A stretch of 64,000 nt of DNA, taken from assembly GCF_014207985.1 (NCBI RefSeq), contig NZ_JACHMI010000001.1, forward strand, positions 8,043,001 to 8,107,000, in the 5' to 3' direction. The stretch's first letter is position 1. Every line of letters begins with the position of its first letter. Origin of the DNA: Nonomuraea rubra (lineage in GTDB: Bacteria > Actinomycetota > Actinomycetes > Streptosporangiales > Streptosporangiaceae). A program made the translations under genes and the position numbers. This document shows, one piece after another, positions 34,503 to 36,838 of this stretch. Below the pieces are notes generated by a model that was not told the DNA's origin, searched no databases, and worked only from the letters and a program-made list of their open reading frames with translations.

Positions 34503-35678
34503 TCAGCCGAACGGTCGTGATCGCGCGGCCAGCCGCTCGATCGGCACCTCCCCCGCCTGGCTCCCGTCGCGCAGCCGCACCGCCGCCCGCCCGCCGGCCA
34601 CCTCACGCGGCCCCACCACGAGCTGGTACGGCACCAGCCGGTGCGCCCTGATCCTGGCCCCGAGGCTGCCCCGGTCGGCGGGCACCAGCTCGGCCCGCAG
34701 CCCGGCCGCCACGCACCGGCGCAGCACCTCCTCGGCGCCGGCCCCTTCGGCGTCCGACAGCGGCAGCACCACCGCCTGCACCGGGGCCAGCCAGGCGGGG
34801 AAGGCGCCGCCGTGCACCTCGATGAGGTGCGCGACCAGCCGCTCGATGCCGCCGACCACGCTGCGGTGCACCATCACCGGCCGCTCGCCGCCCACGTAGC
34901 GCAGGTCGAAGCGCTCGGGCTGGAAGTAGTCAACCTGGACGGTCGACAGGGTCGACTCGCGGCCGGCCGGGTCGGCGATCTGGATGTCGATCTTCGGGCC
35001 GTAGAAGGCGCCCTCGCCGCGTTCCTCGTCGTAGGGGCGGCCCCGTTCCTTCAGCACGTCCCGCAGGACCGACTCCGAGCGCGCCCACATGGCCGGGTCG
35101 TCCACGAACTTCTCACCCTCGCCGCGCAGCGACAGCCGGTAGCGCGCGGCCCGGATGCCGAGCCGCTCGTGCGCGGCCTCGATCAGGTCGAGCGCGGCCG
35201 ACACCTCGGCGGCGGCCTGCTCGGGCGCGCAGAACACGTGCCCGTCGTTGAGCTGGATCGCTCGCACCCTGGTCAGCCCGCCCAGCACGCCCGACAGCTC
35301 CGAGCGGTACATGCCGCCCAGCTCGGCGATGCGCAGCGGCAGCTCGCGGTGGCTGCGCTGCCGGGAGCGGTAGACGATCGCGTGGTGCGGGCACAGGCTG
35401 GGCCGCAGCACGAACTCCTCCCCGCCCACCATCATGGGCGGGAACATGTCCTCGGCGTAGTGGGCCCAGTGCCCCGATCGTTCGTACAGCTCGCGTTTGC
35501 CGAGCACCGGCGAGTTGACGTGCTGGTAGCCGTTGCGGCGTTCCAGCTCGTACACGTAGTCCTCGACGGCCTTGCGCACGGCCGCGCCCGCGGGCAGCCA
35601 GTACGGCAGGCCGGCGCCGATCAGCGGATCGGTGTCGAAGATGCCCAGCTCACGGCCGAGCCTGCGATGGTCGTTCAT
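34503..35678 (-). CDS. Short threonyl-tRNA synthetase lacking TGS and editing domains
   Basis: The 391 residues contain only the class II catalytic core and anticodon-binding domain; normal bacterial ThrRS has about 640 with N-terminal TGS and editing domains. It begins right at the catalytic core (DHRRLGRELGIFDTDPLIG). Zinc-ligand equivalents are kept: Cys in SLCPHH, His in NDGHVFC and His in VMVHRSVVGG. Motif 2 MYRSELSGVLGGLTRVR and the C-terminal VVLPLSDAE domain are present. So it should charge tRNA-Thr but cannot proofread Ser in cis. ATG 35678 has GGAGAGG at good spacing; ATG 35684 is too close to it. A threonine-rich leader peptide and hairpins precede it. It is likely a second, inducible ThrRS. 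The gene for the full-length one is not in the window. Confidence 0.9.
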   Translation of the reverse strand: MNDHRRLGRELGIFDTDPLIGAGLPYWLPAGAAVRKAVEDYVYELERRNGYQHVNSPVLGKRELYERSGHWAHYAEDMFPPMMVGGEEFVLRPSLCPHHAIVYRSRQRSHRELPLRIAELGGMYRSELSGVLGGLTRVRAIQLNDGHVFCAPEQAAAEVSAALDLIEAAHERLGIRAARYRLSLRGEGEKFVDDPAMWARSESVLRDVLKERGRPYDEERGEGAFYGPKIDIQIADPAGRESTLSTVQVDYFQPERFDLRYVGGERPVMVHRSVVGGIERLVAHLIEVHGGAFPAWLAPVQAVVLPLSDAEGAGAEEVLRRCVAAGLRAELVPADRGSLGARIRAHRLVPYQLVVGPREVAGGRAAVRLRDGSQAGEVPIERLAARSRPFG

Positions 35679-35715
35679 GATCATCCTCTCCGTGGAAAGG
35701 GCGAACGACCAGCAC

Positions 35716-35735
35716 TCCCGGGCGTCCGCCCGGGA
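35716..35735 (-). terminator. Attenuator hairpin upstream of thrS-like gene
   Basis: A perfect 8-bp stem (TCCCGGGC / GCCCGGGA, loop GGAC on the minus strand) lies 9 bases after the leader-peptide stop and 38 bases before the synthetase start. It lacks a U-tract. Part of its first arm (CCGGG) could pair instead with CCCGG at the end of the leader peptide coding region. Confidence 0.6.
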
Positions 35736-35744
35736 AGCATGGAT

Positions 35745-35807
35745 TCAGCGCGCCGGGACGGTGTCCGGCGTCGTCGTGACGGAGGCGCGCTGCATGTGCA
35801 CGACCAT
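35745..35807 (-). CDS. Threonine-rich leader peptide of attenuator
   Basis: This 20-codon frame starts with ATG 35807 (or ATG 35795) and contains three consecutive ACG threonine codons (35777-35769) and an ACC two codons later, in the context SVTTTPDTVP. It is followed by a stop and hairpins, then the ThrRS gene. Four Thr among the last ten residues, directly ahead of a ThrRS gene, is the signature of ribosome-mediated attenuation. GAGG lies 10 bases before the first ATG. The peptide itself is not expected to have a function. Confidence 0.65.
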   Translation of the reverse strand: MVVHMQRASVTTTPDTVPAR

Positions 35808-35850
35808 AGCACGCGGGCCTCGCGTAGATCTTCGGCGTTGAAAACGTCAA
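35745..35850 (-). promoter_or_regulatory. Promoter and leader of ThrRS attenuator
   Basis: TTGACG at 35850-35845 (minus strand) is a good -35. The -10 region near 35827-35822 (CTACGC) is weak. Inside the leader, AGCGCGCC (35791-35784) and GGCGCGCT (35754-35747) are perfect 8-bp inverted repeats that bracket the threonine codons. A ribosome stalled on these codons would cover the first arm and free the second. Confidence 0.5.
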
Positions 35851-35854
35851 ATGA

Positions 35855-35866
35855 TATAAAAGCCCC
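35855..35866 (+). promoter_or_regulatory. -10 element placing the LuxR start at +1 (leaderless)
   Basis: TATAAA at 35855-35860 ends 6 bp before the GTG of the LuxR gene. No ribosome site is present, so the mRNA probably begins at the start codon. The AT-rich core is shared with the divergent ThrRS promoter. Confidence 0.5.
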
Positions 35867-36838
35867 GTGGCCCAGATCACCGTGGACGTGCGCCAGCTCC
35901 AGGCGTTCGCCGAGGTCGGCTACCAGGTGGCGGGCGGCGGGGGCGCGCACGGGGCGATGGCGGCGCTGCGCCGCGTGGTCCCGCTCGACGCCTACGAGTT
36001 CGTCGCGTACGACCCCGCCACCGGGCGGCACCACAGCGTGGTCTCCGACGGTCATCCGCGCATCGACGGCGACGCGGCCGAGGAGTACGCCGGGCTGGCG
36101 GCGTACCGCAAGGCGATCGCCACCCGGGCGCCGGTCCCCATGCCGGAGCCGGACACCGAGCGGTACTTCCGCCGCCACCTCGCCCCCTACGGCTGGCGGG
36201 CCGGGCTGACGGCGCCGCTGTTCCTGAGGGAGGGCCGCTACACGGGGCTGCTGCACCTGGCGTCCAGGGAGGCGTTCCCGCGGCTCACGGGCGCGCTGGT
36301 GGCGGCGGTCAGCCCGATGCTGGCGCACGTCACCGACCTGAGCAGGTGCGTGATCGACCCGGTGGGGCTGCCGCCCGGCTTCCGCGCGGTCGCCTACGAC
36401 CGGGTCGGCACGCGGCGCGAGGTGCCGGGGCACGAGGTCTCGGCCGCGCTGTGGGACGATCCGGCGATGGCCGCGTACGCGCGGGCGTTCATCGACTCGC
36501 GCGAGCTGAGCCGGCACGGGCTCTGGCCGGGCCCCGGCGGGCGGTGGCACGAGGTGCGGCTGCTGCGGGCCGGCGTCGGGTTCCAGGGGACGCTGCAGGG
36601 GGCTGTGGCGGCCGAGCGGCGCTGCCGCCTGCCGTACGACCTGACGGGGCGGGAGGTGGACGTGCTGACCCGGGTGGCGGCGGGTGACTCCAACCCGCAG
36701 ATCGCGGCCGCGCTCGTGCTCAGCGTCCGGACCGTCACCACGCATCTGGAGCACATCTTCGCCAAGCTGGGCTGCGACAGCCGCACCCGCCTGACCACCA
36801 AGGCCCTGGCCGAGGGCCTGTGCCGCCTCGACCTCTGA
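35867..36838 (+). CDS. LuxR-type transcriptional regulator with N-terminal sensor region
   Basis: The protein has 323 residues. The C-terminal 65 residues form a LuxR/NarL helix-turn-helix (LTGREVDVLTRVAAGDSNPQ, VRTVTTHLEHIFAKLGC). The first about 160 residues look like a GAF-type sensor fold (GWRAGLTAPLFLREGRYTGL) that may bind a small molecule. There is no receiver Asp, so it is not a classical response regulator. The start GTG 35867 is probably leaderless. It is divergent from the ThrRS gene with only about 60 bp between the leader peptide and its start, so each promoter can influence the other. The target is unknown. Confidence 0.87.
   Translation: MAQITVDVRQLQAFAEVGYQVAGGGGAHGAMAALRRVVPLDAYEFVAYDPATGRHHSVVSDGHPRIDGDAAEEYAGLAAYRKAIATRAPVPMPEPDTERYFRRHLAPYGWRAGLTAPLFLREGRYTGLLHLASREAFPRLTGALVAAVSPMLAHVTDLSRCVIDPVGLPPGFRAVAYDRVGTRREVPGHEVSAALWDDPAMAAYARAFIDSRELSRHGLWPGPGGRWHEVRLLRAGVGFQGTLQGAVAAERRCRLPYDLTGREVDVLTRVAAGDSNPQIAAALVLSVRTVTTHLEHIFAKLGCDSRTRLTTKALAEGLCRLDL

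Follow-up and report, generated by a model that had tools for sequence, protein, structure and literature searches.

A Probable Threonine-Responsive Attenuator with ACG Control Codons Upstream of an Auxiliary Threonyl-tRNA Synthetase Gene in Nonomuraea rubra

Introduction

Besides a full-length thrS, the genome of Nonomuraea rubra carries a gene for a short threonyl-tRNA synthetase (ThrRS), here called thrS2, which is preceded by a small reading frame with three consecutive ACG codons. What does this leader do? The locus lies on the minus strand of a 64,000-nt stretch of contig NZ_JACHMI010000001.1 (positions 8,043,001 to 8,107,000), hereafter the window, whose numbering is used throughout. 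An earlier note on the window had proposed attenuation of the classical trp/thr type. On comparing the locus with its counterparts in other actinomycetes, we favor, with a probability of roughly 70%, a ribosome-mediated attenuator that would respond to a shortage of charged tRNA-Thr at ACG codons by opening expression of the auxiliary ThrRS. Sequence comparison brings out the parts of such a device: a probably leaderless leader open reading frame (ORF) with in-frame ACG codons, a hairpin downstream of it (3:4), a hairpin over the Shine-Dalgarno (SD) sequence of thrS2 (5:6), and a covarying helix (3b:5) that would exclude both.

Results

A Threonine-Codon Leader Accompanies thrS2

The elements of the leader and of the start of thrS2 are listed here.

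35803 to 35808, minus strand: -10 element TATGGT, 7 nt ahead of the leader ATG at 35795
35745 to 35795, minus strand: leader ORF of 16 codons, MQRASVTTTPDTVPAR and stop, with the second ATG as start
35784 to 35791, minus strand: arm AGCGCGCC, able to pair with 35747-35754
35769 to 35777, minus strand: control codons ACG ACG ACG (a further ACC is also in the leader)
35747 to 35754, minus strand: arm GGCGCGCT, partner of arm AGCGCGCC
35685 to 35691, minus strand: SD sequence GGAGAGG of thrS2
34503 to 35678, minus strand: thrS2, encoding a short ThrRS (391 residues) that consists solely of the catalytic core and the anticodon-binding domain

The 20-codon frame with three ACG codons and a further ACC upstream of a ThrRS gene, described in the earlier note, is present on the minus strand at 35807-35745, as are the two arms said to bracket its Thr codons (35791-35784 and 35754-35747). 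Its first ATG lies upstream of the expected transcript start. Because TATGGT (35808-35803) precedes the second ATG by 7 nt, we prefer the leader of 16 codons, and MQRASVTTTPDTVPAR is the likely product of a leaderless transcript. For thrS2, ATG 35678, with its SD at 35691-35685, is more likely the start than 35684.

Two sets of genomes were compared. The first consists of the window and the 80 best of 398 named relatives (Nonomuraea, Thermoactinospora, Planobispora, Planomonospora, Streptomyces, Kitasatospora, Kutzneria, Streptoalloteichus, and others), which gave 81 parsed ThrRS2 loci; the second is a survey of 394 genomes of the class. A Thr-codon leader was found in all 81 parsed loci, each with a TANNNT element just before the start, and its peptide ends in TTTP[DE]xVPAR or a close variant (TSTP in locus L033 and TTAP in L106, for example). 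The earlier note had staked its proposal on conservation of the Thr codons in relatives, and they are conserved: the three positions of the Thr box are ACG in 80/80, 79/80, and 80/80 leaders, respectively, in a table that covers 80 leaders and omits L106.

In the class survey a short ThrRS (E <= 1e-120) occurs in 62 of the 394 genomes. Leader cores were counted at 54 places, 53 with at most one mismatch and one with two; ten further two-mismatch matches and all three-mismatch matches were discounted as chance and not individually checked. In 53 cases a short-ThrRS match follows on the same strand, 61-414 nt downstream of the core; the remaining core lies at the end of a contig. Nine ThrRS2 genomes have no such core; a Thr-box leader is present in all seven that are readable, the other two (G243 and G378) being cut by contig ends, so that the survey as a whole has the leader in 60 of 60 readable ThrRS2 loci. 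Within a single genus (that of G109) the core occurs, with at most one mismatch, in 111 of 246 genomes. The N. rubra genome holds one copy of it (triple-ACG form, up to 3 mismatches). One genome in the survey of the G109 genus, G497, has two leader cores, on separate contigs (C149 and C158; locus L216 holds the first).

The Threonine Codons Are in Frame with a Promoter-Linked Start

The frame test took every TANNNT N6-7 RTG up to 100 nt upstream of the Thr box, stop codons being ignored, in 140 leaders (the 81 above, 49 and 8 from the class survey, and 2 of the Streptomyces lividans type; some genomes occur twice). Every leader yielded a single candidate start, which shared the frame of the Thr box in 140 of 140; the number of codons between the two took 9 different values. 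Past the box, five leaders (L147, L150, L151, L152, and L153) have another frame in a similar RNA, and the tail varies no more at third codon positions than at the others. The upstream part of the leader is thus conserved as coding sequence and its downstream part as RNA, which fits an attenuator and not an arrest peptide. Conservation of the frame argues that the leader is translated, and the translated Thr-codon sensor proposed earlier is kept across families.

The Leader and thrS2 Differ in Their Threonine Codons

The 81 ThrRS2 genes contain 655 ACC, 13 ACU, 6 ACG, and 0 ACA codons. ACG is thus 6 of 674 Thr codons (0.9%), versus 69 of 293 (23.5%) in 20 canonical thrS cores; in ten hand-picked ORFs near ThrRS2 at six named loci it makes up 28.7% of 268. 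The G-ending codons of Ala, Pro, Val, Ser, Leu, Arg, and Gly are used by ThrRS2 much as by the canonical cores. Thr codons altogether are scarcer in ThrRS2 (2.1% of codons versus 3.8% in canonical cores); the conserved Thr columns, 4 of 4, are without ACG, which accounts for 6 of 119 in sporadic columns. A second set of 20 ThrRS2 genes, from other genomes, gave ACG 1 time in 152, and 19 of 20 canonical cores contain it. Among those scanned of the 67 tRNA matches in the N. rubra genome there is one tRNA-Thr gene each with anticodon CGU, UGU, and GGU. The pattern is the one expected if ACG decoding fails first under Thr limitation. Selective charging predicts such a codon choice, although the Escherichia coli thr leader uses ACC (PMC1183508).

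The Leader RNA Is Predicted to Form Competing Hairpins

The strands from which the predicted RNA helices are built are the following.

35765 to 35770, minus strand: strand 1, CGCCGG, which shares bases with the third ACG and would be covered if a ribosome stalled at the Thr codons
35751 to 35757, minus strand: strand 2, CCCGGCG, predicted to pair with strand 1 or strand 3
35715 to 35736, minus strand: hairpin 3:4, UUCCCGGGC-GGAC-GCCCGGGAG
35723 to 35731, minus strand: strand 3b, GGGCGGACG, made up of the end of the 5' arm, the loop, and one 3'-arm base of hairpin 3:4, and complementary to strand 5
35699 to 35707, minus strand: strand 5, CGUUCGCCC, overlapping the 5' side of the SD hairpin
35679 to 35710, minus strand: SD hairpin 5:6 (CCUUUC/GAGAGG; GGUC/GAUC), whose predicted outer register varies

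The 8-bp hairpin that had been reported after the leader stop was found at 35736-35715, with 8 Watson-Crick pairs and one G-U. A hairpin search succeeded in 137 of 138 leaders (none was found in L197), and outside Nonomuraea the stems are often 12-15 bp. No U-tract follows hairpin 3:4, there being 1-5 T in the next 10 nt in the 72 leaders counted (those of the 81 with a 4-nt loop and at least 8 pairs, which also served for the folds with 3b:5 enforced), and no terminator-like site was seen in the stretch 35500-35950 of the window. We regard 3:4 as a putative lock, possibly with a weak or factor-dependent terminator role as well.

Folding was computed for the RNA made before strand 4, a stalled ribosome being represented by a mask that extends to 14 nt from the first ACG, an assumed footprint. 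With no ribosome, at least 4 pairs of 1:2 are predicted in 75 of 81 leaders; in the masked RNA at least 4 pairs of 2:3 are predicted in 81 of 81, versus 6 of 81 unmasked. The AGCGCG arm near the leader start is present in 70 of 81 leaders and absent in 11. It is missing, by eye, in the divergent L151-L153, where CGCCGG/CCGGCG overlapping the third ACG persists. L152 and L153 are the most divergent leaders (ThrRS2 58-59% identical to that of the window); they keep the Thr box and CGCCGGG/CCCGGCG, and their downstream hairpin is differently built.

Two other RNA candidates were dropped. Rfam gave no family at gathering score in the window, and within 35500-35950 nothing beyond two weak, unrelated matches at E <= 5, so that a T-box riboswitch or other known RNA family was rejected. 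Some hairpins are followed by CGUCGU, with which the ACG box might pair, but by eye this pairing proved not to be conserved.

A Helix from the Hairpin Loop Could Open the SD Hairpin

The SD hairpin is built as GGUC-CUCGC with GCGAG-GACC in Streptomyces-like loci and as GGUC-CCUUUC with GAAAGG-GAUC in Nonomuraea, within which the predicted register varies. Among 47 sequences of the non-Nonomuraea group its helix is paired in 84.4% of 422 cells, versus 35-52% when slid. Strand 3b reads GGGCGAGUG in most Streptomyces and GGGCGAACG, GGGCGGACG, or GGGCGAAUG in Nonomuraea, and strand 5 has the complementary forms CACUCGCCC (Streptomyces) and CGUUCGCCC (Nonomuraea). The 47-row alignment was made by MAFFT, blind to the 3b:5 pairing; L067, L076, L077, L091, and L107, near-duplicates or loci with long inserts, were left out of alignment A1. 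In the 47 rows 95.5% of 423 3b:5 cells are paired, versus 36-57% slid, and the 12 doubly changed cells and the covariation score were each matched by 0 of 500 shuffles. All 29 of 29 Nonomuraea-type rows have 9/9 pairs, with all 261 cells paired and changes to G-U only. Over 76 of the 81 rows, 665 of 684 cells are paired; 62 cells are doubly changed, versus a permuted mean of 13.7 (0 of 2000 permutations), and 59 rows are fully paired, versus a permuted mean of 42.

Pairing was also scored in 124 leaders, namely those of the 137 with a 4-nt loop. Nine of nine pairs are formed in 89 of them, 8 in 27, and 7 in 8, and shuffled targets reach 9/9 in 2.0%. At the three strand-5 positions facing arm GGG, 25 of 25 departures from C go to U, which keeps the pair. 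In L187 the loop has changed to GCAC and strand 5 to UGUGCGUCC, with 9/9 pairs still; L176, with the same GCAC loop, has only 7/9. When 3b:5 was imposed on the fold, openness of the SD increased in 63 of 72 leaders, its median going from 0.32 to 0.45 in Nonomuraea and from 0.29 to 0.46 in the others, and accessibility of the AUG rose from 0.45 to 0.71 in Nonomuraea.

ThrRS2 and Its Surroundings

The thrS2 product scores above the TIGR00418 thrS cut-off. The full-length thrS of the same genome is 43-44% identical to it over the shared part, and the canonical enzyme has an N-terminal region with a tRNA_SAD (editing-associated) domain, a region that ThrRS2 does not have. ThrRS2 looks active, because its residues are conserved at the positions that correspond to the zinc-binding Cys and His of other ThrRS, ligands of the kind named in PMC4787780. 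A script scan of the 600 nt upstream of the canonical thrS found no run of three Thr codons; it turned up a single dispersed Thr-rich segment, TSTPT, some 143 nt ahead of the open frame.

A fused TRAP transporter permease (TIGR02123; 32437-34431) lies 3' of thrS2 on the same strand after a 71-nt gap. On the other side is a divergent LuxR-type regulator (35867-36838), whose GAF match is just under cut-off and whose start is 59 nt from the leader promoter. The ORFs flanking seven ThrRS2 loci were compared by eye and differ, and a conserved operon partner of thrS2 was dropped as a candidate on that account.

Discussion

How the Switch Might Work

The scheme that we infer for stalling, helix exchange, the effect on expression, and the share of termination runs as follows. 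With charged tRNA-Thr present, the ribosome would clear the leader, 3:4 would form, 5:6 would hide the SD, and little ThrRS2 would be made (off). Were ACG decoding to stall, the ribosome would mask strand 1, and strand 2 would take strand 3 before strand 4 is made, delaying 3:4; strand 5 could then capture 3b and free the SD (on). The ThrRS2 mRNA, nearly all of whose Thr codons are ACC or ACU, could be translated during ACG starvation. Premature termination at 3:4 may add to translational control. Because strand 5 is transcribed after hairpin 3:4, past any termination decision, 3b:5 would act on translation only, and the switch as a whole would act at least on translation.

A fuller statement of the same idea is offered tentatively, its odds falling somewhat short of even. 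Here the sensor, almost only ACG (tRNA-Thr CGU/UGU), and the gene, almost only ACC/ACU (GGU), would be coupled by a six-strand RNA double lock, in which one stall delays 3:4 and opens the SD through 3b:5. Such a device would report the collapse of one isoacceptor while its product can still be translated, and the cassette would have moved between actinomycete families as a unit.

Several results weigh against the attenuator as we read it. The pairing of strands 2 and 3 lacks specificity: CCCGG (35757-35753) can pair with CCGGG (35733-35729), as the earlier note had pointed out, but this pairing is indistinguishable from composition, shuffled strand-3 arms pairing with strand 2 as well in 83-88% of trials. 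In full-length RNA with a stalled ribosome, 3:4 still folds in 78 of 81 leaders. The longest leader, L086, has 18 codons before the box, and a ribosome on its Thr codons would miss the AGCGCG arm. Covariation in the SD helix is not above shuffles (144/500; 47 sequences). For 3b:5 in the 47 rows, 76 of 500 shuffles had as many as 3 doubly changed pairs and 494 of 500 as many as 10 further pair types, and the 76-row signal owes much to one difference between two groups. Thirty-five of the 124 leaders fall below 9/9, and loops swapped between species still give 9/9 in 41.8%. By parsimony, the loop, strand, and joint changes number 2, 2, and 2 at pair 4 and 2, 3, and 3 at pair 6; because independent double changes on the tree are so few, the permutation figures overstate the evidence. 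We consider the comparative evidence for the 3b:5 helix strong but not overwhelming. Its enforced ensemble lies above that with 3:4 by about 7 (Nonomuraea) to 16 kcal/mol (others) in the median, and outside Nonomuraea the AUG does not become more accessible (0.53 to 0.49). Because the 3b:5 state is less stable than 3:4, the on state would have to be kinetic; kinetic control is assumed for attenuators in general.

Other Explanations

Among the alternatives, the one that survives best is a narrower form of the preferred reading, with odds counted inside those given above. It holds that the device is purely translational, with no premature termination, 3:4 merely keeping 3b off strand 5 and 5:6 closing the SD. 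The missing U-tract and the conservation of the SD hairpin and of 3b:5 agree with it. However, the 3:4 stems outside Nonomuraea, often 12-15 bp, are far longer than a mere lock needs, and NusG- or Rho-aided termination could still take place. We think this restriction rather unlikely to hold.

Less probable still is classical transcription attenuation alone, in which 3:4 terminates at plentiful Thr, a stall lets 2:3 prevent this, and neither the second hairpin nor 3b:5 plays a part. The layout of leader codons and hairpins fits it, as do the long stems outside Nonomuraea and the preference of the stalled-ribosome fold for 2:3 before strand 4 is made. Against these stand a hairpin 3:4 without U-tract, covariation of 3b:5 even though strand 5 lies past the hairpin, and SD-sequestering folds in both groups. 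The attenuation reading of the earlier note is supported in part. Its in-frame Thr sensor holds, and ACG in the leader with ACC in the gene fits hungry-codon logic. Its downstream hairpin, however, has no U-tract and is unproven as a terminator, its 2:3 pairing is no better than composition allows, and the AGCGCG arm is not constant. Its single-hairpin scheme was also incomplete, having overlooked the SD-sequestering hairpin and the conserved helix to the loop of the first hairpin.

Microtetraspora, Streptosporangium, and Sphaerisporangium rows stand among Streptomyces rows in the ThrRS2 tree, a quick tree in which support for the latter two is lower, and this suggests that leader and thrS2 were transferred horizontally as one cassette. 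Recent spread of the cassette with no functional switch might then explain the conservation. It is very improbable: ThrRS2 of other genera is only 58-73% identical to that of the window, yet the leader core is nearly invariant; third positions vary in the conserved Ala, Pro, and Val columns of ThrRS2, loop and strand 5 change together, and the idea, which would require the leader core to be conserved no better than synonymous positions in these cassettes, is already contradicted. As a separate observation on the tree, a Microtetraspora row forms a pair with one from Streptomyces (starred), and rows L080, L082, and L095 among L062-L112 mix families.

Nascent-peptide arrest, in which the conserved VPAR-stop tail and not Thr-tRNA stalls the ribosome, can claim a C-terminus nearly constant in 81 loci, but we reject it as very improbable, given that the tail is frame-shifted in five leaders of similar RNA and its third codon positions are as constant as the rest.

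Significance

If the attenuator works as proposed, it is a widespread and easily cloned case in which one stall may control both hairpin formation and, via a covarying helix from loop to SD strand, translation. It would also be a natural test of selective-charging theory, with ACG as the sensor codon and nearly purged from the controlled gene. Many soil actinomycetes would then hold a spare ThrRS inducible by starvation or by inhibitors, which may be relevant to ThrRS inhibitors from soil bacteria.

Comparison with Known Systems

In the autogenous thrS operator of the E. coli type, a ThrRS with N-terminal domains binds its own leader; ThrRS2 differs from that enzyme in being without the N-terminal region. 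The auxiliary trpRS1 of Streptomyces coelicolor, in work attributed to Kitabatake (2002) and to Vecchione and Sello (2010), is reportedly indolmycin-inducible, a second synthetase under ribosome-mediated attenuation that is induced when the main enzyme fails. It is a Trp system, and we know of no SD lock in it. The Anabaena ThrRS T2, as described in the accessible part of its report, resembles ThrRS2 as an auxiliary ThrRS, editing-defective, that is deployed under stress, but its control is by Zur and zinc and not by a leader (PMC4787780).

The classical trp, trpS, and leuS attenuators of Streptomyces, in the available portion of a 2005 actinobacterial survey, combine a cognate-codon leader peptide with competing hairpins, ahead of an aminoacyl-tRNA synthetase gene as here; for threonine operons that survey states that it saw no conserved upstream RNA structure, and the portion does not address thrS (PMC1262725). 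A direct relative is thrL-thrS of S. lividans TK24 (SLIV_19412/19410), annotated in 2021 (PMC8079986). Its leaderless leader peptide MKRVRPFLETTPGFVPAR upstream of thrS is like the leader in the window, and its one hairpin with no U-rich sequence agrees with the leaders of the family (PMC8079986). Because locus L235 encodes the same peptide MKRVRPFLETTPGFVPAR ahead of a ThrRS2-like start (placed by eye), S. lividans thrL is, on sequence grounds, a member of the ThrRS2 leader family. The S. lividans report, in the part available, is a single-species annotation without the family, the SD hairpin, the 3b:5 helix, or the codon argument (PMC8079986). In the open-licence literature, subscription papers being outside the scope of the search, we found neither the leader family nor the SD lock described, and likewise no account of helix 3b:5 or of the purging of ACG. 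A comparable double control is that of tlrB (yxjB) of Bacillus subtilis, where, according to the portion of the paper at hand, a single stall in the leader peptide governs a terminator hairpin together with a hairpin that sequesters the SD; it differs in that the signal is tylosin and not tRNA charging, the stalled ribosome itself blocks both hairpins, and an antiterminator was not identified there (PMC6851288). The S. lividans member and dual control by one stalling leader are therefore known, and the family, the SD lock, the 3b:5 helix, and the purge of ACG from the controlled gene appear to be new.
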